Shown here: positions 3-42,715 of the stretch, piece after piece
Position numbering within the stretch: position 1 is the stretch's first letter
How the letters are laid out: the number at the start of each line of letters is the position of its first letter
Assembly (NCBI GenBank): GCA_036898135.1
Contig: CM072514.1
Coordinates: 80,014,973 to 80,078,972 of the forward strand
Reading direction: 5' to 3'
Source: Oncomelania hupensis
Lineage: Eukaryota; Mollusca; Gastropoda; Littorinimorpha; Pomatiopsidae
Length of the DNA stretch: 64,000 nucleotides
Made by a program: the position numbers and the translations under genes
The notes under the pieces: model-generated
Seen by the model: the letters and a program-made list of their open reading frames with translations, nothing else
What the model was told of the DNA's origin: nothing
Databases searched by the model: none

Positions 3-23
3 GTACAAGGCGGAACAGACACT
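3..23 (+). CDS. GH31 exon (partial at window edge)
   Basis: Seven codons read VQGGTDT, followed by a strong donor (GTGAGT at 24). The Gln aligns with Q262 of E. coli YihQ, the first residue of the sulfoquinovose-binding set. The exon ends in phase 0, which fits the next exon. Confidence 0.8.
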
Positions 24-412
24 GTGAGTAAGCCCTAGTTATTTATTTATTTATTTATTTTATTTAGTTATTTATTTATTTGTATTGATCTATTACGTGT
101 ACCTTTTTTTCTTATCTTCTTCCTTTCCTTTTCTTTCTTTCTGTTTTATCGTTTGTGGAAAGTGATTCGACTACAAGACAACCAAATTAGAAGTATATTT
201 GTGTGGGTTTTAAAAAAATATTTATCTTTAGTGTTACACATTTTCTGTGTTCATTTTTTGCGCCTACAGCCTGTTACTATAGCAAAGGATATCGGTGCTA
301 TGCTAACAACCTTCAGCATCAGCATCGCCATAATTATCGAATTCATCTTGACTCTGATCGCCTTGCAAATGCAAATAGGATATTAAGGCACTACATCGCC
401 CTAAGGCATGGC

Positions 413-493
<81 letters not shown>

Positions 494-1307
494 AATGATG
501 ATGATGATGATGAGGAGGAGGAGGCAACTGTAAGATAAGTAAAGGGTCGATTTCTACGGGATGAAGAGAATTTAGAGAACAAATGAATCGGGATTCGAAT
601 TGTTGAAAGAAGAATACGAATCCGGTAAAATGCTTTGACTTAATGTTCCCCTACGAAATCGCGCTCTTTCCGGCTCACAAACCGATCGACCTGCTGGGAT
701 CATCAAATTGTATCAAACCAAGTGAGGACGCTATCCGACGGTAGCAAACTGTTTAAAACTATTTTCAAACTGTTCGATAAAGACAGTGTGACCTAAAGCT
801 TCACATATAGAAGCCGACAGTTGCGTGGCAAGACAGCTCTCCCTTATAGGCTTATAGTGTCCGGGGACGTTAATCTACCTGCCTGCAAGACAGCTTTATA
901 CCCAGTGCTCTCTCCGAAAGACCATCACACAAGCCATTGGACAACACGATGGCCTGCTCACAGTGGTGAAAAAACGGAAACTCCGATGGTATGGCCATGT
1001 CACCAGATCATCAGGTCTTGCAAAGCCCATCCTGCAAGGCACAGTGCAAGGAGGTAGAAGAAGAGGGAGACCGAAAAGGAGGTGGGAGGACAACATTCGA
1101 AAATGGACTGGTTTGACACTGGGCGAAACAACCAGGGTTGCTTAGGACAGGAAAGATGGAGTATGCTGGTTAAACGATCATCTGTGGTGCCCTTACGACC
1201 TCCGAGTTACGGGATAGGATAGAATAGGATCTCTACGTCATGTCCTTCTATATGGATGAAGATATATATCGCAGAAAATATCTTTTACACAGGGTGGATG
1301 AGAAGGC

Positions 1308-1360
<53 letters not shown>

Positions 1361-3164
1361 GGTGGTGGTGGAGGTGGTCGTGACGGTAGACATGCTCATG
1401 GGCAATACAGTTGATAAGCCACCATGTCTGTAACGTTCTTGATAAACTATCTGCCCTATGTCTCTCTAGATGATGAGCAGATGGAAGCAGGCTAACGACA
1501 GCGGCATCGCGGTGCGCGGCCTGTGGATCCAGGACTGGTCAGGGACCAAGAAAACGCCGTTTGGAACGCGAGTCTTCTGGAACTGGCAGTGGAACCAGCA
1601 GCATTATCCTAGTACGTCAACGTAAAGTAACCTTTGTTTTCATAGTAAGCCTACGTCAACGTAAAGTAACCTTTGTTTTCATAGTACGTCAACGTAAAGT
1701 AACCTTTGTTTCATACTACGTCTACGTAAAGTAACCTTTGTTTTCATAGTACGTCAACGTAAAGTAACCTTTGTTTTTATAGTACGTTAACGTAAAGTAA
1801 CCTTTGTTCTCATAGTACGTCAACGTAAAGTAACCTTTGTTTTCATAGCACGTCAACGTAAAGTAACCTTCGTTTTCATAGTACGTCAACGTAAAGTAAC
1901 CTTCGTTTTCATAGCACGTCAACGTAAAGTAACTTTCGTTTTCATAGTACGTTAACGTAAAGTACCCTGTGTTTTCATAGTACGTCAACGTAAAGTACCC
2001 TTTGTTTTCATAGTACGTCAACGTAAAGTACCCTTTGTTTTCATAGTACGCCAACGTAAAGTAACCTTCGTTTTCATAGTACGTCAACGTAAAGTAACCT
2101 TTGTTTTCATAGTATGTCAACGTAAAGTAACCTTCGTTTTTATAGTACGTCGACGTAAAGTAACCTTTGTTTTCATAGTACGTCAAGGTAAAGTACCCTT
2201 TGTTTTCATAGTACGTCAACGTAAAGTACCCTTTGTTTTCATAGTACGTCAACGTAAAGTAACCTTTGTTTTCATAGTACGTCAACGTAAAATAACCTTT
2301 GTTTTCATAGTACGTCAACGTAAAGTAACCTTTGTTTTCATAGTACGTCAACGTAAAGTAACCTTCGTTTTCATAGCACGTCAACGTAAAGTAACTTTCG
2401 TTTTCATAGTACGTTAACGTAAAGTACCCTGTGTTTTCATAGTACGTCAACGTAAAGTACCCTTTGTTTTCATAGTACGTCAACGTAAAGTATCCTTTGT
2501 TTTCATAGTACGCCAACGTAAAGTAACCTTCGTTTTCATAGTACGTCAACGTAAAGTAACCTTTGTTTTCATAGTATGTCAACGTAAAGTAACCTTCGTT
2601 TTCATAGTACGTCAACGTAAAGTAACCTTCGTTTTTATAGTACGTCGACGTAAAGTAACCTTTGTTTTCATAGTACGTCAAGGTAAAGTACCCTTTGTTT
2701 TCATAGTACGTCAACGTAAAGTACCCTTTGTTTTCATAGTACGTCAACGTAAAGTAACCTTTGTTTTCATAGTACGTCAACGTAAAATAACCTTTGTTTT
2801 CATAGTACGTCAACGTAAAGTAACCTTTGTTTTCATAGTACGTCAACGTAAAGTAACCTTCGTTTTCATAGTACGTCAACGTAAAGTAACCTTTGTTTTC
2901 ATAGTACGTCAACGTAAAGTAACCTTTGTTTTCATATTACGCGCTTACTTTCTTAAAGAGGGAGTAAGCTGACTGTGCTACAATGTCCGGCGGGTGTACA
3001 GGATAGTATACCCTGGATTCCTTCTTTTTTTCATCACACGAGTCCACTTTCTGCATGGACTATTTGTAAAGGGTTATATTTGGTCTCGTTTCGCCGCAGC
3101 CACAGTGTAAAGAACCCGGACATAGTTACACGATGCAGGTGAGACAGCTTCAGATAAAGTCAGG

Positions 3165-3233
<69 letters not shown>

Positions 3234-3343
3234 CACTACTACTACTACTTCCACTACTAATCCTACTCCTACTACTACTACTACTACTACTTCCACCACT
3301 ACTACTACTACTACTACTTCCACTTCCACTACTACTACTACTT

Positions 3344-3376
<33 letters not shown>

Positions 3377-3478
3377 GGCCTACTACTACTGCTGCTACTA
3401 CTTCTACTACTACTAAGCCTACTACTACTTTCAGCCTGATTAGTAGTTTAGAAAAAAACGTGTATATAGCATCCAATA

Positions 3479-3541
<63 letters not shown>

Positions 3542-3942
3542 TTTAAATTGCTTTATTGTCCTTTTTTATCGGGAAATTGTGGGCCGCCTCCCCTGGGGAA
3601 GGCGTAGTCGCAGCCTGTGGCGCGCCCAAACCCAACCTACCTAACATTAGTTGTGATTTTAAAATTTAGAAATTCTTGAAATTTTTTAAATTTTGCTGGG
3701 GGAGCAAACCGGAGTACCCGGAGAAAACCCCCGAGACGTTGCCCGAGTCGAAAGTAAATAGCTTAATATTTGGAGAAACATAACGCCCAAATGCTGGATC
3801 GAACCCACACCTGTCAGGCGCCATTTATTATTATTATTATTTTTAAAATTGTTGTTGTTGTTGTTTGTAGTAGTGGTAGTAGTAGTAGTTGGTGTTGTTG
3901 TAGTCGTAGACTAGTAATAATAATAATAATAACAATAATAAC

Positions 3943-4012
<70 letters not shown>

Positions 4013-4933
4013 CATGCTATATACGCGCATATCCTGAAATCACTAATCAGCCTCAAAGCGCGGCGATCTGTACCAGCATACACGCTCTTACCTATACCTT
4101 GTTATCGGTTTGTCTTCTTGTTTGTCAGTCCGATAGTCCATTTTTCTGTACAAGTCACTGCCAGTGTCTCTAGGCAAATTAAAATAAGCATCATCGCACC
4201 CACTTCTAAAAATAAAAAGACTACTGAAGGGAGTTTTCATTTGGGTAGCTGCTCAGTCAGTCAAGCAATGGCGTTTTGATGGGTAAAACTCGTTTGTGCG
4301 TGAAGAAGAGAAATGTTGGTCAAAAGGTGGGTGTTCTTGTAGGTGGGTAGATGGGTGGCTATCGATGGTAATATTACAAAGGTGATGGTTGGATAGGGGA
4401 GGGGAAAGGGGATGGGGGGGGGGGAGTGGTGAATTGAAGATCGCCTGCTGTATTGATGCTGCTTGGCTGCAGGTAGATTGGAACGTTGACAGTCGTGTTG
4501 ATATTTTGTAGACCTACGACGCACATAAATGTCCATGTGGTTTTATGAAGGCAAGAAAGAGTCTGATTTGTGATACAATAGCATCATTACGTCAAAGCAG
4601 CGATGGTAGGCTGGTTTATTGAAGGATTGATTTAGGGCTCTCCTTCGTGTTGTTTCCAGAATTAAACAGCACGATCGCTGCGTTACGTGAGTCCGGTGTG
4701 CGAGTGCTGGTCTACGTCAACCCCAGCCTGGACAGCAGCGGTCCACTGTTCCAAGTCGCCAAGCAGAACGAGTACCTGGTCAAAATGGCCAGTGGTCAGC
4801 CCTACCTGGTCGATTACGGCACCTTCCGTTGCGGCATGATAGACTTCACCAACCCACAGGCCTACGCCTGGTACAAAGACAGTTAGTATAACGACGAAAA
4901 CGACGACGACGATGATGATAATGATGATGATGG

Positions 4934-4996
<63 letters not shown>

Positions 4997-5707
4997 CGAT
5001 GAAAACTTGTACAGCGCCGGTATCTACAAACATCGGTGCTCATGGCGCAGCGTATCGTGAAAAGAAAGTGAACTTCGGGAACCTGATCTTCGGATATCGT
5101 GTGACGTAAATGGCGGACTTGTTTCTATAATCTATGTTTAACACACTGACGCCCGTATCGGGATGAGAACGGAGTGCACTGCTGTCTGCATACTTATTCT
5201 AGTTAGCAGAGAGAGGGACGGACGCCTGTGGTTTAACATAATCAAAGGATAGTACCCGGATCCATCTTGGACGTTGGAAGTTGAATTCAAGTCTAGGAGT
5301 AAGAGAATTTGGCGAGTAGGCTACCCCACACATAACTTTCTTTTTCTTCTTCTTCTTCTTCTTCTTCTTCTTCTTCTTCTTCTTCTTCTTCTTCTTCTTC
5401 TTCTTCTTCTTCTCTTCTGACAACCCCATGTTTATGTCTACATATTATTTTTACTGCCATTGCAGGCATCATCAAAGCCAACATGCTGAGCCTAGGGGTC
5501 GGTGGGTGGATGGCGGACTTCGGCGAGTACCTTCCAGTGGACGCCGTCCTGTACAACGGTCAAGCGTCGCTGCTACACAACCAGTGGCCAAAACTTTGGG
5601 CACAGCTCAACCACCAAGCTGTCACCGAGTTCGGACAAGATGGACAAGACATCGTCTTCTTCTCTAGATCTGGATTTTCTGGTCAGCAGCAGGCGTTTGT
5701 TATTTAG

Positions 5708-5747
<40 letters not shown>

Positions 5748-6413
5748 TGTGTGTGTGAGCGCGCGGGCTTGTGGAAGGGAGGGGAATGTGTATGTGCGTG
5801 TTAGTTGCGTGTTTGTGTATGGGGAGGCTAAAAAGGGCTCTTAACAATCTTTTGTCCCCTCAGAGTATTCCACCTAATAATTAGGATTATGTCCCTTTTG
5901 TTAACTCTGGTGGCCTTTCTGCAACCTTTTTTTTGTTGTTGCATCTTTTGTTTGTTTGTTTGTGGTGCCTCCCTGAAGCTTACAAAGCATTAATGCATTC
6001 TTCACGAAGGTGAAGATTCTGGAGGTGACGGCGTTTCTCTCTTACGTATACCAGCGTATAGAGAGAGCGACGTGTAGACTTCGGCATCTCTCACCTTCAG
6101 ATACGGGTGATTGTGATCCTTCTTTTCTACAGGGACCAGCAACGCCACAGTGCTGATGTGGGCCGGTGACCAGAACGTGGACTGGTCAGTCAGTGACGGA
6201 GAGGCGTCCACTATCCCTGCAGCCTTGTCCATGGGACTGAGCGGCGTGGGTCTGACCCACTTCGACATCGGGGGATACACCACTTACGTCCTGCCGCAAG
6301 TCAAGATGGTCCGGTCAGCGGAGAGACTCCTGCGTTCAGCAGAGCATGCCGTGTTTGGCCCCGTGTTTAGAACGCATGAAGGTAGGGCTATGTGTGCAAT
6401 GCAGTTTTTTTAA

Positions 6414-6496
<83 letters not shown>

Positions 6497-6677
6497 GAAA
6501 GAGATTACTCTTATATAGCGCACTTACAAGCTCAGAGAGCTTCTCAAAGCGCTGGCCACTACCATCCAGCAATCACAAAATAGTTTGCTGAAGTCAGGAT
6601 TCGAACCCACGTCGCCCGAGACGCATGTACACAAGTCGTGCGTTCTGACGACTGAGCTATCCCTGCCGCCAGATGGA

Positions 6678-6737
<60 letters not shown>

Positions 6738-9102
6738 TGATGATGATGGATGATGATGATGATCGATGATTGATGATTGTTAATGATGATGATGATTGAT
6801 GATGATGAAGACGACGATGACGATGATGATGACGATGATGACGATGATGATGATGATGTGCTCCCTTGTCATCTCCATCTTCCTATACGCTTGCGAAACA
6901 TGGACCCTCATATCAGACTTACAACAAATACAAAGTATACAAAGAATACAAAGCGTGGAGATGAGGTGTTACAGAAGACTTCTGGGCATTTCCTATACCC
7001 AGCACATCACCGACGACAAAGTCCGACACAAGCCATTGGACAACACCATGACATGCTTACAGTAATGAAGAAACGCAACCTCCGATGGTATGGCCACGTC
7101 ACCAGAGCATCAGACCTTGCAAAGACCATCCTGCAAGGAAGCAGAAGAAGAGGGAGATAAAAAAAAAAAAGGTGGGAGGACAACAGTCGAGAATGGACTG
7201 GCTTGACACTGAGCGAAGCCATGAGGGTTGCTGAGGACAGAGATAGACGGAATACGCTGGTTACACGATCATCTGTTGCGCCGCAACGAGTTACGGGATA
7301 GGATATGATAGGATAGGAATAGCATAGGCCTCCGATATGATTGGAAATATAGTTGATAGATTATGCATATGTTCCTCCAATTTTACCTGGCTATACGTTC
7401 TTTTGTTTTTTGTTAAAACGTAAGCTTACTTCTGACCAAAAAAAGGGAAGGGGGGGGGGGGGGGGGCTGCTTGGCTGGTGTAGTAGGATGGATGTAAGAA
7501 GATAGATGCAGAATGAAAATAAGAAAAAAGAACACCCAATTTTTTAAAGGAAGGCCAACACTCCAATTCTAACGCAACAAGTACACACTGCTGTGTTTCA
7601 GTTCGCTAGTTCCCAGTACCTCCCATTGAAAGCAAGCCAAAATCTCAGCAGAAATTCTTTGCTATTACGCCTATTATATTTACACAGGTAAACAGGGATA
7701 CTTACAGATTTAGTTCTTTATCCCTTCTTCCCTGGGATGGCTATCCATGTCTGCCGTATCGCCAATAATGGGTGTGGACGTAAAACTTCCATGTTCGTTC
7801 ATTGTTCTAGGTAATATACCCCAAGCCAACGTTCAGTTCTATAGCAACAGTTACACCCTGCAGTGCTTCAGCCTGTTAGTGAAAATGTTCATCACGCTGG
7901 CTCCCTATCACCAACACGTCGTCAACGTCACCGCCATCACGGGCCTGCCTGCCCAGCGGCCACTCTTTCTCAGGTATCATCATCATCATCATCGTCGTCG
8001 TCATCATCATCATCATCATCCTCATCATCCTCATCATCATCATCCTTCTCCTCCCCCTATCCTTAAAATCATCGTCATAATCGTTAGCATCATTATTTCG
8101 TTGCTGTGTTTTCTCCTTCTTGTTCTTCGTGTTGTTCTTTCTTTCTTTATTTCTGTCTTCCTTCTTCTTCTTCTTCTTCAATCTTCTTCTCCTTCTTCTT
8201 CTTCGTCTTCTTTGAACTGTGAATACACCATCAAAACAACTTTAAAGTAACGCGATGCGCACTCGCCTAATGAAGAAAGTTAAATAAAAGGTACTCGTAA
8301 TATATGCCGTGCATCGCATTCGAGGATTACAATTTCATAATTCTAAAACACTGTGGTCAATCAACATTAACACTTTTTAAGCTTGGTACCTGTAATCATG
8401 GCATATTACGCTGGAGGAATAAAACGCGGAGTTTAAAAGCAATCGAGGCATCCTGTTGTTTTTTTTTTAGATTCTTTTGTTTGCGATTAGTTTGGGGTCA
8501 AATCGACCCCTAAGTAAGGCGAGAGTTATTTGCTGGAAATCTGCAGAATGACGATGAAAACCGCTCTTCCGAGTTATGACCAACTAAAGAGAAACCCTAT
8601 AGCTTTATTTAAGTGCATTTCTTTATTGATTAGTTTATTTGTGTTGCGCAGTTATCCAGACGACGCTGACAGCTACCAGGAACAATACCAGTACCTGTAC
8701 GGCGAAGACTTGCTAGTCGCTCCTGTCTACCTACCTGGCCAGCTCACCTGGTCCGTCTACCTGCCGCCAGACCAGGATATCTGGGTCTACCTATGGGACA
8801 GCAACCTCACTTCACCCGGCGGAGTACGCCTCAACGTCTCCGCACCGCTCGGGCACGCTCCGGTTTTCTATCGCAGCTCCTCCAAGTTCGTGGAGCTGTT
8901 TCAGATCGTGGGGCAGATCCCAGCTCTTTCTCTACCCACTGCCGCTCCCTCTTCTACCCTTCCTCCTTCCTCCCTCCGCCCTACGTCAACTCGTTCTCTG
9001 TCTCCTGATCACACAGGGGGTAGTGGTGTGAATCGTGTGTCCACTACAGCTCTAGTGATCACCAGTATTGTTGGTCTTTGTATGTTGAAACTACTGAGTT
9101 AA
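3..9102 (+). CDS. Sulfoquinovosidase-like GH31 glycoside hydrolase, C-terminal 487 residues, seven exons
   Basis: Exons 3-23, 1470-1611, 4660-4881, 5466-5681, 6133-6381, 7811-7973 and 8652-9102 join in frame (1464 nt, 487 residues plus TAA). The 5' part lies before the window. Family knowledge: YihQ-type GH31 enzymes release sulfoquinovose from plant and algal sulfolipid glycosides. Residues seen: Q2, Q28, R41, W44 and Y249 match the E. coli sulfonate-binding set Q262/Q288/R301/W304/Y508, and D146 and D213 match nucleophile D405 and acid/base D472 (numbering recalled). The spacings 26, 13, 3, 67 and 36 are identical; only W44-D146 is one longer. After the catalytic and beta domains come about 35 Ser/Thr/Pro-rich residues and a hydrophobic C-terminus, absent from the bacterial enzyme. 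Inference: secreted or surface-anchored digestive enzyme of an animal that eats algae. Family is near certain; substrate is inferred. Confidence 0.93.
405..511. repeat. (GAT)n microsatellite
   Basis: Over 30 near-perfect GAT units. Poly-Asp, poly-His and poly-Ser reading frames across it are repeat artefacts. Confidence 0.95.
905..1232 (+). mobile_element. LINE 3' fragment (reverse transcriptase C-terminal region)
   Basis: Translations in shifting frames give LRWYGHVTRSSGLAKPIL, GRRRGRPKRRWEDNIRKW and a Trp-rich end, the recurrent C-terminal tail of an animal non-LTR retrotransposon polyprotein. The 3' end is CTCCGAGTTACGGGATAGG followed by short GATAG-type repeats. It is the first of eight copies in the window. 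Confidence 0.8.
1470..1611 (+). CDS. GH31 exon with the QDWSG and RVFWNW motifs
   Basis: Acceptor TCTCTCTAG precedes the exon and the donor is A|GTACGT. It encodes WIQDWSG and GTRVFWNW, carrying the Gln, Arg and Trp that bind the sulfonate in sulfoquinovosidases. The exon ends in phase 1. The donor lies inside the first unit of the minisatellite that follows. Confidence 0.92.
1612..2940. repeat. 33-bp minisatellite, about 40 units, starting at the GH31 splice donor
   Basis: The unit begins GTACGTCAACGTAAAGTAAC and ends CCTTTGTTTTCATA. Variant units (ACCCTGTG, GTCAAGG, GTCGACG) recur at 462 and 495 bp, so blocks of 14-15 units were duplicated. Because 33 is a multiple of three, a 396-codon minus-strand frame stays open; it is a by-product of the repeat. 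Confidence 0.96.
3163..3540. repeat. (ACT)n and (ATT)n microsatellites with a SINE-D tail
   Basis: A 260-bp imperfect ACT tract is followed by a short segment ending GTGTATATAGCATCCAATATC and then (ATT)n (3478-3540). That junction matches the 3' end of SINE family D elsewhere in the window. Confidence 0.85.
3541..3830 (-). mobile_element. SINE family F (tRNA-Ser/Leu-like head), copy 1
   Basis: Read on the minus strand it has a B-box-like GGTTCGATCC, then the shared core (GGTTTTCTCCGGGTACTCCG, 3697-3735), then a GC-rich tail with CTTCCCCAGGGGAGGCGGCC. Further copies lie at 34545-34835 and 38240-38540. Here the 5' head is cut off. Confidence 0.75.
3913..4235 (-). mobile_element. SINE family D copy with (ATT)n tail
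   Basis: On the minus strand the body passes through CAGATCGCCGCGCTTTGAGG and GCGCGTATATAGCATGCATT into about 30 ATT units. The rest of the body is diverged. Confidence 0.7.
4236..4659 (+). other. GH31 intron remainder, no feature
   Basis: AT-moderate sequence with a G-rich run near 4415. I see no exon or repeat family here beyond the acceptor at its end. Confidence 0.6.
4660..4881 (+). CDS. GH31 exon, (beta/alpha)8 barrel segment
   Basis: Acceptor GTTGTTTCCAG, donor A|GTTAGT. It encodes barrel strands and helices (RVLVYVNPSL, GMIDFTNPQAYAWYKD), colinear with the bacterial sulfoquinovosidase. An N-glycosylation sequon (NST) is near the start. Phase 1 at both ends. Confidence 0.92.
4903..4999. 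repeat. (GAT)n microsatellite 20 bases after a GH31 donor
   Basis: Near-perfect GAT units begin just inside the intron that follows exon 4660-4881. Confidence 0.95.
5340..5413. repeat. (CTT)n microsatellite before a GH31 acceptor
   Basis: About 24 CTT units, 50 bases upstream of the acceptor of exon 5466-5681. They may extend its polypyrimidine tract. Confidence 0.95.
5466..5681 (+). CDS. GH31 exon with catalytic nucleophile (GGWMADFGEYLP)
   Basis: Acceptor CTGCCATTGCAG, donor G|GTCAGC. The catalytic nucleophile Asp is at 5516-5518 in WMADFGEYLP, a sequence specific to the sulfoquinovosidase branch of GH31. It then covers HNQWPKLW and FFSRSGFSG. Confidence 0.95.
5711..5825. repeat. (TG)n microsatellite
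   Basis: TG run of about 24 units with a degenerate continuation, in the intron after exon 5466-5681. Confidence 0.9.
6133..6381 (+). CDS. GH31 exon with acid/base Asp and DIGGYTT
   Basis: Acceptor CTTTTCTACAG, donor G|GTAGGG. MWAGDQNVDWS holds the acid/base Asp (6168-6170). FDIGGYTT holds the Tyr (6276-6278) equivalent to YihQ Y508. The exon ends in FRTHE, where the bacterial enzymes continue RTHEG. Confidence 0.95.
6413..6735 (-). mobile_element. SINE family C (tRNA-like head) flanked by (AAT)n
   Basis: Read on the minus strand: GGCGGCAGGGATAGCTCAGT (A box), GGTTCGAATCCTGACTTC (B box), then AGCGCTTTGAGAAGCTCTCT and GCGCTATATAAG before (ATT)n. The 3' end resembles the AGCGCTATATAA end common to L2/CR1-mobilised SINEs. 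A second AAT tract (6678-6735) lies on the head side. A related copy is at 33850-34050. Confidence 0.8.
6735..6860. repeat. Imperfect (GAT)n tract
   Basis: GAT and GAC trinucleotides in irregular order, directly before a LINE fragment. Confidence 0.9.
6860..7318 (+). mobile_element. LINE 3' fragment (reverse transcriptase C-terminal region)
   Basis: Frames give SLVISIFLYACETWTL, MRCYRRLLGISYTQHI and NLRWYGHVTRASDLAKTILQ, ending in GAGTTACGGGATAGGATATG and pentamer repeats. It is broken by frameshifts and an A-run (7159-7171). Confidence 0.85.
7319..7714 (+). other. GH31 intron stretch without recognised features
   Basis: Contains a 17-base G run (7449-7466) and otherwise ordinary AT-rich sequence. 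No exon or repeat family was recognised. Confidence 0.6.
7715..7805 (+). mobile_element. SINE family B tail, adjoining a GH31 acceptor
   Basis: CCCTGGGATGGCTATCC...GTCTGCC...AATGGGTGTGGACGTAAAAC...CATGTTCGTTCATT matches the 3' part of the SINE at 37243-37480. The tail ends six bases before the AG of the acceptor at 7810. Confidence 0.75.
7811..7973 (+). CDS. GH31 exon, end of catalytic domain
   Basis: Acceptor CATTGTTCTAG, donor AG|GTATCA. It encodes the helix-rich region ending GLPAQRPLFL, as in the family. A SINE tail abuts the acceptor and an ATC microsatellite begins at the donor itself. Confidence 0.9.
7974..8240. repeat. (ATC)n then CTT-rich tract at a GH31 donor
   Basis: The donor GTATCATCATC runs straight into the ATC repeat (to about 8045). 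A CT-rich segment with many CTT units follows to 8205. Confidence 0.9.
8241..8651 (+). other. GH31 last intron, 3' half
   Basis: AT-rich and without recognised repeats. It ends in a usable branch and pyrimidine region before the acceptor at 8651. Confidence 0.6.
8652..9102 (+). CDS. GH31 terminal exon: beta domain, S/T/P linker, hydrophobic tail
   Basis: Acceptor GTGTTGCGCAG. YLYGEDLLVAPVYLPG and APLGHAPVFYR are the GH31 proximal and distal beta-domain signatures. After VELF the protein runs on about 68 residues: a Ser/Thr/Pro-rich stretch, a small-residue patch (GGSG), then TALVITSIVGLCMLKLL to the stop. No charged cytoplasmic tail follows, which favours a GPI-attachment signal over a plain transmembrane helix. 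Confidence 0.92.
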
Positions 9103-9599: not shown

Positions 9600-9836
9600 A
9601 TATAATTTCAAACAAAATTATCGTTGTTTATACCCAGGAAGTTTTGGAAGAGTTTTCAAGAATAAAAGGTAGGTGGCTGGTCTAGCGAAGAAGAAAATAG
9701 TATAGTAGATTAATAAAACAGAGTAGAGATGAGAAAAAACAAAAGAGAAAGATAGCGACAGTGGGAATTTAAAGCACTAAATTTCCACAAAGTGGGGATA
9801 CTATTTATACTGAAACCTCCGGTGCCCCCATGGAGG
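9600..9836 (-). mobile_element. Retroposon family G, 5' part only
   Basis: On the minus strand: TTTCAGTATAAATAGTATCC, then GGAAATTTAGTGCTTTAAAT and a CT-rich stretch ending near CTTGAAAACTCTTCC. The same 5' portion is found at 20400-20580, 60830-61010 and 61580-61750. Confidence 0.75.
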
Positions 9837-9959
9837 AGAAGCTGGGGAGGGATGGGGGGAGGGGGGATCTGTTTTGTTGTAATTGTTTTGTCTGGATTGA
9901 GGGCCATGTGGTTGGATTCAGTCCATTCCTGTAGTTCACTAGCCCCTTTTTGTAATAAG

Positions 9960-10324
9960 GATAGATTATTGAAGTCTGTATTTTGAGAGTGTAATGTGTC
10001 ATCAGCGAAGAGTTTACAAGAGTTAGAGATATGAAGAAGGGGGTCATTTATGTAGATAGAAAATAACAAAGGTCCTAAAATGGAGCCTTGCGGTACTCCA
10101 GCTGTAACAATTTCAGATTGTGACTTTTGGTTATTTACATAAACACACTGTTCTCTGTCAGAAATAAACCATTGTAAAAATTCAAGTGATTTAGAATGAA
10201 TGCCATATAATTGTAGTTTACGTATGAGAAGGTCATGGTCTATTACAGCGAAAGCTTTTGCGAAGTCAACAAATAATGCTGCAGAAAATGTTCCCCTAAT
10301 ATTATTTACCCATTGTTCTATCAT
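9960..10324 (-). pseudogene. Reverse transcriptase domain fragment of the LINE
   Basis: An open frame running from 10324 down to about 9710 covers motifs A to D of a non-LTR reverse transcriptase: VDFAKAFAVIDHDLL, GVPQGSILGPLLFSIYIND, CKLFADDT and MALNPDKT. The motif A Asp and the FADD Asp pair are intact. Downstream the frame runs into family G sequence and loses similarity, so the thumb and C-terminus are gone. Confidence 0.9.
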
Positions 10325-10486
10325 TGAAGTAAGAGCTGTGTGACAAGAATGTTTAGCTCCGAAACCAGATTAATTTTCATCTAAGAGTTTTCAGTGAAAT
10401 GATCAACAATATTATTATTTATTATGTTTTTCAAGAGGCTTAGAGAAAGTAGAAAGAATTGAAATAGGCCTGTAGTTCGATGTTAA

Positions 10487-15305: not shown

Positions 15306-17173
15306 AGGCCTGGACTAGGGGGGGGGGGGTTACAGGGGTTACGTAACCCCCCCCCCCCCCTGGCCTGACTATGTACTTCTTTTTTTTTCTTTCTTTTTTT
15401 TTGGGAGGGGAGGGGTAGGGGGGTGTAGGGGGCTACGTTACAATCATAAGTAAATCCGGGGAGAAATTTCAACCCTCTCTCTCCCCTAGGCACTATAAAA
15501 AAATAAATCCTCTTGCACTCTACTCAATTTCAACCACTGATTCTTTTATCACAAGTAACTACATTCTGTTACCTGAGACACTGTGCTTCCCATAGCTTGA
15601 GTCTCTGCATTGTAAAAGCATGCGGCTTGCCTGCAGTGAAGAACATGATGGGAGCACTGAGGGAACTGTCACTGTTTTTCTCAAACTCTCCAAAGAGACA
15701 AAGAAAACTTGAAGATACATGTACCATCGAATCATCTCAGCCTGACACGACAAAAACAAAGCTTGTTGATCTGTGCAGAACAAGATGGGTAGAAAAACAT
15801 GAAACACTTTCTGGTTGTTCACGACTGTTTGGGACAAATGTGTGAAGACAGTGACAATTGGGACAGTGAGACACTGACCAAGGCAACTGGCTTCCTCCAC
15901 ACCTTGAGCAGCAGTGCTTTCCTCGTTGCATTCGTTGTCGTCCGCAATTGTTTGCGTTACTTAAAACCCTTGACAGTGAAGCTGCAGAAAAGGACAAAAG
16001 ATGTTGTCGATGCCTACAGGGAAATCAAAGCGGTCAGTAACTGCATGTCTTCTATTAGAAGAGATGTCGACACAGCGTTCGTTGCCTGGTTCGGTGAAGT
16101 CAGCAAAATGGCGAATGCTTTGACAACTGATGTTATTGTTCCTCGTCAAGCATCCAGACAGACTCTCCGTGACACTCCAGAAGAATATTTCAAGATTAGC
16201 ATTGCCATTCCTTTCTTGGAACACCTGTCAATCGAATTGGACTCGAGGTTCAAAAATGCTGACCTAGCAGTTGATGGTCTCTGTCTGGTGCCAAGCACTT
16301 TAATAGACAACCAGGATGGTTTCATGCAGGTTCCAGAAGGGGTGAAGACACTGGCAATGTTGTGGGAGTCTGATCTACCAGACAACGCTACCCTTGATGC
16401 AGAATACCAAAGGTGGGTTTGCAAATGGCGAAGTGCTGCTGAGAATGCGACAGCTATCATCCCATCCACGGCATCAGAAGCACTGAAACATTGTGACAGG
16501 GATTTTTATCCCAACCTGTTCATCATGCTAAAGAACCTTTGCACCCTGCCTGTCACTACTGCCAAGTGTGAGCGTTCAAACAATCAGTTGCGCAACCTGA
16601 AAAACTACCTGCGCTCTACAATGGGGCAACATAGACTCAATGGACTTGCTTTACTGAAAGATCACAGGGATGTTGATATTGACTTCAAAGAGGCAGTGAA
16701 CTGTTTTGCCAGAAGATACAATTCACAAATGGTACTAATGCCGAGGAACCTAGTGCAGCAAGACTGAAAGTGAAAGCAGGGCGTGATGTTCATAAATTAC
16801 AAGGTAAAGCTTTATACTGTTAACGATCAACAAAATGTAGTGAATAATAATAGTATACAAAACATCTCTGCTGATAAATAAATGTGTGTGTGTTTTTTTT
16901 GTTGTTGTTTTTTTAAGGGACGGGCAGATGATTATTTTTGTACCCCAGTGTTTGTCAGTTCAATTTGTTTAAAAAGCTCAAAGTCCCAGACCATCATAAA
17001 TGGCTTTTTCAAGGTTCAGATTGCACCAGATTGCACCATTTTGCATCCTTGAAAAAAAATTTTCCGGGGGGGGGGGGGGCATGCCCCCGGACCCCCCTAG
17101 AAGGCTCGGCGCTTCGCGCCTTCGCTGAATCTGTAACCCCCCCCCCCCTCAACTTTTCCCAGGTCCGGCCCTG
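15306..17173 (+). mobile_element. hAT DNA transposon with 8-bp target duplication
   Basis: ACTAACGC flanks the element at 15298-15305 and 17174-17181, the 8-bp duplication typical of hAT. The ends are imperfect inverted repeats: AGGCCTGGACTAGG on the left, and CAGGGCCGGACCTGG on the right read inward. Both ends carry long G/C homopolymers, and the left has a perfect palindrome GGGGTTACGTAACCCC. Inside is a broken transposase on the + strand. Confidence 0.9.
15513..16767 (+). pseudogene. hAT transposase remnant (52 kDa repressor/ZMYM-like), frameshifted and N-truncated
   Basis: The first frame (to about 15845) has HSLSLCIVKACGLPAVKNMM and LCRTRWVEKHET, typical of the central part of hAT transposases related to the '52 kDa repressor of the inhibitor of the protein kinase' proteins. 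After a shift near 15810-15840 a second frame of about 320 residues continues to TGA-ended QQD. It includes the C-terminal dimerisation region, CERSNNQLRNLKNYLRSTM and RLNGLALLKDH. The N-terminal zinc finger and first catalytic segment are missing, so the element cannot move by itself. No host role is suggested. Confidence 0.88.
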
Positions 17174-29911: not shown

Positions 29912-30463
29912 ACTATCCTATCCTATTCTATCATATCCTATGCCATAACTCGGAGGTCGTAGGGGCACCACAGATGATCGTTTAACCAGCGTACTCCATC
30001 TTTCCCTGTCCTCAGCAACCCTGATAGTTTCGCTCAGTGTCAAACCAGTCCATTCTCGAATGTTGTCCTCCCACCTCTTTTTCGGTCTCCCTCTTCTTCT
30101 ACCTCCTTGCACTGTGCCTTGCAGGATGGTGTTTGCAAGACCTGATGATCCGGTGACGTGGCCATACCATCGGAGTTTACGTTTCTTCACCACTGTGAGC
30201 AGGTCATCGTGTTGTCCAATGGCTTGTGTGATGGTCTGTCGGACTTCGTTGTTGATGATGTTCTGGGTATAGGAAATGCCCAGAAGTCTTCTGTAGCATC
30301 TCATCTCCATGCTTTCTATTCTTCGTTGGAGATCTGCTGTGAGGGTCCATGTTTCGCAAGCATATAGGAAGATGCAGATGACAAGGGAGCGAAGCAGCCT
30401 TACCTTGGAACGACACTGGAACTTAGAATTAACTACCGGTTTAGATAGGAGAACGCACGTCAA
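29912..30463 (-). mobile_element. LINE 3' fragment with an open 181-codon reading frame
   Basis: Best-preserved of the eight copies. The minus-strand frame covers RLLRSLVICIFLYACETWTL, MRCYRRLLGISYTQNI, VKKRKLRWYGHVTGSSGLAN and GRRRGRPKKRWEDNIREWTG, and runs to the 3' tail (CTATC-type repeats at 29912-29940). This is the C-terminal portion of a non-LTR retrotransposon polyprotein, 5'-truncated at insertion. The uninterrupted frame suggests a recent copy. Confidence 0.9.
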
Positions 30464-31085
30464 TGGTGACGGCGCAGTCAGAGCTAGAGAGGTTTTTGAG
30501 CCTGCATGACCCTTGACTTTCGACTATTACAATCACAATTACCGCTTCAAATAGAGATAAAAATACAAGGACTGCTTGAAATGCCGATAAGAAAGTTATC
30601 TGATGAGTCATTGTCAGATTTAACTCGCCGCCCCTGCTAGCCTATGTAATCAATCATGTATTACCATCATAACGTGCGTCATTGATGATTTGTTCACGGA
30701 CGTCCTATGTCTACTTACAATTGTCTTTATTTGTAATAATAAAATTATTTTTGTTCAATTCGATTAAACTGTGAATAATTAATCATTTAATAAGCCTATT
30801 TAATATGCCTATGTCTATTTAAAATAATACAATTGTCCTTATTAGTAATAATAAAACACTTTGTAGAAGTCGATAAGACTATAAATAGTTAGTTGTTTTA
30901 TAGCGAAAATATCTATGCAGTGAAATCAGTGTGTAGTCAGTAGCGTACTGAATAGTCTCGTTAACTGCGGTCGAACCACTTTAAACTAAATTTGTGTCTC
31001 CTTTAAATCCTACCTACTTACCACTACTACTGTTCAATCTAAGAACCGTGAAACTTTGGGAATGGTGCCTTAATGATTATTATCT
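30464..31085. other. Intergenic, AT-rich
   Basis: A short repeated phrase (TTTAAAATAATACAATTGTC / TACAATTGTCTTTATTTGTA) at 30716-30850. No coding potential. Confidence 0.5.
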
Positions 31086-41429: not shown

Positions 41430-42715
41430 ATGGATGCTGAGAGACTTGCTATGATTGGTGCACTAGTCCAGCAGCAGAATCAGAACCACCTCAGATTGCA
41501 ACAAGCTGTTGACAGAAGGAGAAGAGAGAGAAGGAGAGACAGAGTTGTGTTGGTCAGACAGTGGATTCTGAGAAGGCCTGAACATGGACTTATGACAAGC
41601 TGATGGTGGAGCTGAGGAATGAGGATCCACGGGCCTTCCAGCACTTCATGAGGATGCCACCAGCCATGTTTGATGAAGTTGTACAGAGGCTGACCTCCAG
41701 ATTGACCAAGCAAGACACCAATTACCGAGCAAGCCTGGAACCTGGTCTCAAAGTGGCAATCACCCTACGGCACCTGGCCTCTGGTAACACCTACAGAAAC
41801 ATGCAATACGCCTGGAGGGTTCCCCACAACACCATCAGTGTAGTAGTCAGAGAAGTGGTAAAGGCCATCACTGAGGAGTACACAGATGAACTCGTGTTTT
41901 GCCCAACAACTGAACAAGGATGGAGAGACCTGGCTGACCAATGGTACCAGACATGGAACTTTCCCCACACAGTTGGTGTCATTGATGGCAAGAACGTGGC
42001 CTGTAAAGCTCCTCGTAACTCTGGCTCAGAATTCTACAACTACAAAGGCTTTTACAGCGTGATCCTGTTTGCCATGGTGGATGCTGACTACAAGTTCACC
42101 TACATTGACCTATCAGGCAATGGCTCATCCTCAGACGCTCAGATCTACAACGAAAGTGATCTCCATCGTGGGCTGGACCAGAACAGGATTCATGCCTTTC
42201 CTCAGCCAGATCCCCTACCCAATGACAATCAGGATGTGCCTTACTTCATCATCGGGGATGACGCCTTCTCACTGCGGACCTACCTCATGAAGCCGTACAG
42301 CACCAGAAACCTCACCCACGAAGAGCGCATCTTCAACTATCGGCTATCCAGGGCAAGACGGGTCGTGGAGAATGCCTTCGGCATCCTGGCCAACAGGTTC
42401 CAGATTCTGCTCACCACCATGCAACATCACCATGAAACTGTCAGAACCATCGTGGAAGCTTGCTGCATCCTCCACAACCTGATGCACACCCGCTTCCCAG
42501 TGGTCCAGAACAGACTTGTGGACCGTGCACAACCAGATGGGAACCTGCAGTCTGGAGCATGGAGAGAAGGACGGAACTTGGGGGACACTATCGTTGTGCA
42601 AGGCCCCAACACAGCCTCACGTAATGGGAAGAGGCAGCGAAACCTAGTCAAGCATTGGTGCAACTCCCCATCAGGATCAGTGGATTGGCAGGAGAGAATG
42701 GTGGCTATCAACTGA
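41430..42715 (+). pseudogene. PIF/Harbinger transposase, one apparent frameshift
   Basis: A first frame (41430-41603) encodes an Arg-rich N-terminus (VDRRRRERRR, RQWILRRPEHG). The second frame (ATG at 41603) gives 370 residues: the helical region with NEDPRAFQHFMRM, then the DDE_Tnp_4 nuclease with GVIDG (D128), GNGSSSDAQIY (D178), IIGDDAF and RRVVENAFGIL (E256). The two frames overlap at TGATGG. The homology of RRPEHG and YDKLMVEL across the junction suggests one lost base near 41590. Otherwise the catalytic domain is full length with no internal stop, so this is a young copy. Its usual partner, a Myb-like protein, is not seen nearby. Confidence 0.92.

Follow-up and report, generated by a model that had tools for sequence, protein, structure and literature searches.

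A probable sulfoquinovosidase gene of glycoside hydrolase family 31 in the snail Oncomelania hupensis

Sulfoquinovose (SQ) is produced at 10 billion tons a year (PMC10755693), and one source describes its degradation as characterized only in bacteria (PMC12890257). According to a 2025 paper, SQ degradation by animals had been unclear, and no SQ degradation is reported there for germ-free mice or human cells (PMC12330013). A different, NAD-dependent family, GH188, is reported to have plant and algal members (PMC10755693). The question raised by a 64-kb stretch of Oncomelania hupensis DNA (the window, that is, the whole stretch analyzed) is whether an animal carries a sulfoquinovosidase (SQase) of its own. 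The first 9.1 kb of the plus strand contain the 3' two thirds of one GH31 gene, which is very likely an animal, and probably a gastropod, gene for an alpha-SQase. The gene belongs to a known enzyme family and occurs in an unexpected host group, and together with its relatives it provides concrete, expressible candidates for addressing SQ degradation by invertebrates. No paper on animal GH31 SQases and no use of the term "sulfoquinovosidase-like" were found in the open-licence literature searched; an earlier mention of such enzymes is possible in a paper on SQase evolution (Abayakoon 2018) or in subscription journals.

Gene structure and active-site residues

Seven visible exons, separated by six introns that are all GT-AG, encode 487 amino acids without an inner stop, and the stop codon lies at 9100-9102. 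The roles given to residues below are those that we take the individual residues of the Escherichia coli SQase YihQ to have.

3..23, plus strand: exon 1 (first visible), VQGGTDT, with Q2 (codon 6-8) equivalent to YihQ Q262
1470..1611, plus strand: exon 2, WIQDWSG, with Q28 (1530-1532), R41 (1569-1571), and W44 (1578-1580)
1610..2941, no strand: 33-bp tandem array (40.2 copies) within visible intron 2, outside the product
4660..4881, plus strand: exon 3, (K)LNST...YAWYKD(S)
5466..5681, plus strand: exon 4, WMADFGEYLP, with the nucleophile D146 (5516-5518)
6133..6381, plus strand: exon 5, GDQNVDWS, with the acid/base D213 (6168-6170), and DIGGYTT, with Y249 (6276-6278)
7811..7973, plus strand: exon 6, (G)NIPQANVQFY...RPLFL(S)
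8652..9102, plus strand: exon 7 (last), end of the catalytic core, linker rich in proline, serine, and threonine (P/S/T), and hydrophobic C-terminal tail

HMMER alignment with E. coli YihQ (5aed) gave 449.8 bits (E value, 1e-133), with residues 1 to 423 of the product matching residues 261 to 674 of the chain. Q2, Q28, R41, W44, D146, D213, and Y249 aligned with Q262, Q288, R301, W304, D405, D472, and Y508 of YihQ, with one extra residue in the product between W44 and D146, and the correspondence was repeated with YihQ translated from E. coli K-12. The binding set Q262, Q288, R301, W304, and Y508 is complete in the window protein, and the catalytic Asp pair D405/D472 is present as D146/D213. 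A preliminary description of the window had placed these seven residues at the YihQ spacing with the same single insertion, which the alignment confirmed, and the motifs that it had named (QDWSG, WMADFGEYLP, GDQNVDWS, and DIGGYTT) were all located in exons 2, 4, and 5. Judged from the aligned sequences, the agreement at seven residues is far beyond chance. A chance motif match was also considered and was rejected on the basis of the 450 bits to YihQ and the seven residues in place.

Among the best 60 of 65 PDB matches, ranks 1 to 6 were SQases (385 to 450 bits), with YihQ being followed by five further SQase sequences, one of them a YihQ variant (384.6 to 447.4 bits); two of these six carried just the label glucosidase or GH31 in the sequence search and are titled SQase in the structure listing. 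Rank 7, the first non-SQase, was a transglucosylase with 121.9 bits. An ordinary animal alpha-glucosidase or MYORG-type protein that merely resembles YihQ would share the GH31 family with the window protein, and matches of this kind were indeed found with lysosomal alpha-glucosidase (64 to 65 bits), MYORG (59 to 61 bits), and neutral alpha-glucosidase AB (about 55 to 57 bits). YihQ, however, reached 450 bits, the MYORG match begins at residue 40 without covering Q2 or Q28, and the GH31 protein YicI has S, H, and D where YihQ has Q, Q, and R. At the levels of sequence and fold this explanation is regarded as refuted, and its probability is minimal. In the NCBIfam model NF007746, whose own label is alpha-glucosidase, the window protein scored 556.3 bits against a cut-off of 553, even though a third of the protein is absent; E. 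coli YihQ, which has its best score with this model, reached 1246.6 bits and YicI 241.1 bits.

The 5' end of the gene lies beyond the window start, so that the N-terminal third of the protein falls outside the sequence covered. In relatives, (V/I)QGGT follows a Gly codon whose second and third bases fit the two bases in front of exon 1, which indicates that the gene enters the window from outside. Searches with five invertebrate relatives (tblastn) matched the positions of exons 2 to 7 and revealed no second copy of the GH31 gene within the window, and tblastn at E values of up to 10 revealed nothing convincing for the N-terminal exons in the readable part of the upstream DNA. A nonfunctional copy, decaying or truncated at its 5' end, would fit these unseen exons as well as the transposon remains and long repeats nearby but is improbable given the seven open exons, the six canonical introns, and the retention of all seven named residues.

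Relatives, phylogeny, and fold

A protein search yielded 4208 matches, of which the best 120 were listed. Among the matches listed, the closest was Babylonia areolata protein P0001, which is about 68 to 70% identical to the window protein, and the next named row was 54% identical. Proteins of gastropods, bivalves, a brachiopod, echinoderms, acorn worms, and amphioxus in the same list shared about 48 to 55% identity, and bacterial and unnamed rows about 47 to 52%. An animal profile and the N-terminal part of a scallop protein, used as further queries, brought in a bryozoan, Paramecium, Bulinus (a snail), Ciona, and a fungus. The database names "sulfoquinovosidase" or "sulfoquinovosidase-like" are carried by proteins of Babylonia, Patella, Mytilus, sea urchins, Branchiostoma, and Ciona, which indicates that annotation pipelines already know the family. 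One record, a 671-amino-acid SQase with the source name Chlamydia abortus (P0130), was listed among Paenibacillus-like rows and is perhaps mislabelled.

All seven residues are kept in 32 of 41 animal rows, Q288, R301, and W304 with both catalytic Asp in 38, and the two Asp alone in every row; the Batillaria row does not extend to residue 262. The same set is found in 43 of the 57 non-animal rows; of the others, 12 carry the K,E variant, YicI lacks the set, and 1 short row deviates at 262. The changes among animals include those of a gastropod paralog clade (P0002, P0003, P0004, P0005, P0009, and P0013), whose six members all have Phe in place of Tyr508, with Q288 being changed in three and R301 in two. 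The rows losing Q288 or R301 are P0002 of Littorina, P0009 of Babylonia, and P0013 of Nucella, all of which keep both catalytic Asp. Judged by these alignments, gastropod paralogs altered around Q288 and R301 have perhaps changed their specificity. Three further animal rows, from a starfish, a sea urchin, and an amphioxus, likewise have Phe at 508. The window protein lies outside the gastropod clade with Phe508.

Two phylogenies placed the window protein with SQases. A quick maximum likelihood tree of 95 rows and 416 columns, in which YicI was the sole other GH31 protein, separated 39 animal and 3 metagenome rows (42 of 95) from the remainder by a branch with a Shimodaira-Hasegawa-like approximate likelihood ratio test (SH-aLRT) support of 100; this group adjoins a Spirochaetia row (support, 95) and lies near the YihQ and Clostridium groups. 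In a more careful tree of 87 rows, all of them SQase-like, the animals and the 3 metagenome rows (39 of 87) again fell on one side of a branch (99/87). Within the limits of this sampling, in which neither tree held a MYORG row, the window protein is grouped with SQases and not with other GH31 proteins. Together with the matches of about 55 to 65 bits to MYORG and animal alpha-glucosidases, as compared with 450 bits to YihQ, this supports the YihQ branch of GH31 rather than the alpha-glucosidases or MYORG, a placement with which would have refuted the preliminary reading. The window protein and P0001 form a pair with supports of 100 and 100/100 in the quick and careful trees, respectively, on a long stem (0.58 and 0.55).

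The animal clade, which stands beside bacterial SQases, contains molluscs, a brachiopod, a bryozoan, echinoderms, acorn worms, amphioxus, and a tunicate. With both deuterostomes and lophotrochozoans in the clade, the gene probably dates back to their split or earlier. The order within the animals only roughly tracks kinship, with tunicate, amphioxus, and crinoid rows branching first, followed by other echinoderms, acorn worms, and lophotrochozoan rows, and gastropod rows are scattered over several places of an unresolved fork. A single old acquisition followed by vertical descent and duplications is a plausible reading of these sequences, which the tree fits without proving it. The root is uncertain, with a YicI branch length of 10 in the quick tree and midpoint rooting on a long fungal row in the careful tree, and the direction and number of transfers depend on it; animals plus Paramecium as one clade were not rejected (approximately unbiased test, P = 0.078). 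Paramecium sonneborni P0141 and the fungus Saxophila tyrrhenica P0252 are YihQ-type proteins with the full seven-residue set; both are placed apart from the animal clade in the trees, and P0252 sits on a very long branch.

The structure was predicted for the Babylonia relative P0001, from an alignment of 31 sequences, rather than for the window protein. The model has a mean predicted local distance difference test score (pLDDT) of 86.8 and a predicted template modeling (TM) score of 0.90. Among the best 50 of 425 PDB matches with E values of <0.001, ranks 1 to 23 were all SQase entries (TM score, 0.90 to 0.92), representing E. coli YihQ, BmSQase, and the Eubacterium rectale and Agrobacterium enzymes, and the first other GH31 protein had a TM score of 0.69 with 18% identity.

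An SQase by descent may have another acidic or sulfated alpha-glycoside as its main substrate. The long stem of the window/Babylonia pair and the fact that the animal members are predicted from sequence are consistent with this, as are the Phe508 and Q288/R301 changes of the gastropod paralogs, which indicate that specificity may drift nearby, and the presence of three SQase-like copies in Babylonia, a scavenging relative. Unlike those paralogs, the window protein keeps all seven residues at about half identity to YihQ, and a different main substrate is accordingly rather unlikely.

Compared with YihQ (5aed, 5aeg, and 5oht), the window protein has the same catalytic core and seven residues and also exceeds the NF007746 cut-off, but its gene has introns, its sequence carries a P/S/T linker and a hydrophobic C-terminal tail, and the enzyme is predicted. 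It shares a clade and mostly the architecture with the named invertebrate SQase and SQase-like proteins, but it pairs with one Babylonia protein only. The Agrobacterium-type SQase (5ohs and 7ofx) has the fold, the R/W pair, and the catalytic Asp in common with it but has K,E at positions 262 and 288 in place of Q,Q. MYORG and the lysosomal and endoplasmic reticulum alpha-glucosidases share with it the GH31 family.

Predicted location and role

The core of the window protein ends near residue 423 and is followed by the P/S/T-rich linker and the hydrophobic tail, whose hydropathy peaks at 2.31 over a 14-residue stretch that stops 4 residues short of the C terminus. From its sequence, the tail looks like a glycosylphosphatidylinositol (GPI) signal or a short membrane tail. 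In a simple hydropathy count, a hydrophobic C-terminal stretch was found in 32 of 39 animal rows and a hydrophobic N-terminal stretch in 29 of 38, compared with none of 12 full-length bacterial rows in either case; several of the animal rows without hydrophobic ends are models cut short at one end. Animal SQases are probably exported, tethered digestive enzymes, as far as these terminal stretches can tell.

By the YihQ mechanism, the window enzyme would hydrolyze its substrate in two steps with retention of configuration: R41, W44, and a water bound by Y249 would hold the sulfonate while the nucleophile D146 and the acid/base D213 would cut the alpha-glycosidic bond, freeing SQ from sulfoquinovosylglycerol or sulfolipid. 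The protein would enter the secretory pathway and remain anchored on the outside of a cell through the C-terminal tail. Its most likely site would be the gut or digestive gland, where it could complete the breakdown of algal sulfolipid once lipases have taken the acyl chains. The animal would probably use the glycerol part, with SQ being left to microbes or excreted.

Several observations weigh against an SQase with this role. Residues have drifted in the gastropod paralog clade near the window protein, and the residue-altered Littorina relative P0002 also exceeds the NF007746 cut-off (730.1 bits), so that this model alone is no proof of function. Babylonia is a scavenger rather than an algal grazer, and its P0001 protein model has neither the tail nor a signal-like start. 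With the N-terminal third of the protein lying outside the sequence covered, the gene may be broken at its 5' end. Queries with YihS and YihT gave no matches in the genome, an empty result that alone is weak evidence. Since a YihQ query found three loci in the same genome, release of SQ is supported and sulfoglycolysis of the E. coli type is not. Of the preliminary reading, the animal gene of the YihQ branch thus stands and ancient transfer is plausible, whereas a degradation pathway in the animal finds no support in the unmatched YihS and YihT.

A wider proposal, to which we give about even chances, is that an exported, membrane-tethered SQase of the animal's own serves many marine invertebrates in sulfolipid digestion. 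It would have come from bacteria earlier than the bilaterian radiation, persisted in many filter feeders and grazers, disappeared from other lineages, and been re-specialized in some gastropod copies that lost sulfonate-binding residues. If this is true, animals and not only bacteria control SQ release in the sea. Sulfolipid digestion by animals becomes directly testable with these genes, and the intact and drifted copies form a natural series for probing the binding residues.

Genome context and neighboring elements

The window lies within a 93-Mb contig of a 1.45-Gb assembly. The YihQ query of the whole genome found the window gene, two further SQase-like genes, and two weak other matches. 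The two further genes are convergent and lie on the same contig (C4), about 17.5 Mb away.

C4:62449653-62464941, plus strand: SQase-like relative 1, with Q262, Q288, R301, W304, and WMADFGEYLP kept and GGFTT, that is, Phe at 508
C4:62467977-62481795, minus strand: SQase-like relative 2 (L106-L108), with the R301 loop altered and the motif WMADLGEFLP

Each of the two has a hydrophobic tail at its end, and for both the top matches are proteins of caenogastropods, which makes the animal probably a caenogastropod. Relative 2 keeps both catalytic Asp and, like P0002, P0009, and P0013, is altered around Q288 and R301, perhaps with a change in specificity. When splice sites were compared by eye, relative 1 shared five of the six introns visible in the window gene in both place and phase, and each of these two genes has one intron that is absent from the other. 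Among 20 other GH31 exon loci, only L091 and L094 were strong matches to SQases (>200 bits), and the remaining 18 had 46 bits or less or no match.

The identity of about 50% to bacterial SQases could be taken as a sign of bacterial contamination or very recent transfer. The preliminary description had held the introns to argue against contamination, and the argument is strengthened by six spliceosomal GT-AG introns on a 93-Mb contig with two further intron-containing SQase-like genes, one of which shares five intron positions, so that contamination is excluded. The Babylonia protein, with 69 to 70% identity, also speaks against contamination or recent transfer. This explanation is regarded as refuted, with practically no probability left to it.

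Also in the window, mutually similar coding-like fragments (...LRWYGHVT...GRRRGR...) occur at 858-1145 (plus strand), 6777-7157 (plus strand), and 29921-30523 (minus strand); the one that was scanned had no Pfam match, and they are perhaps remnants of a retroelement. A reverse transcriptase fragment lies at 9713-10369 (minus strand), a hAT dimerization domain fragment at 15793-16764 (plus strand), and an open frame of 377 residues containing a DDE_Tnp_4 transposase domain at 41582-42712 (plus strand).

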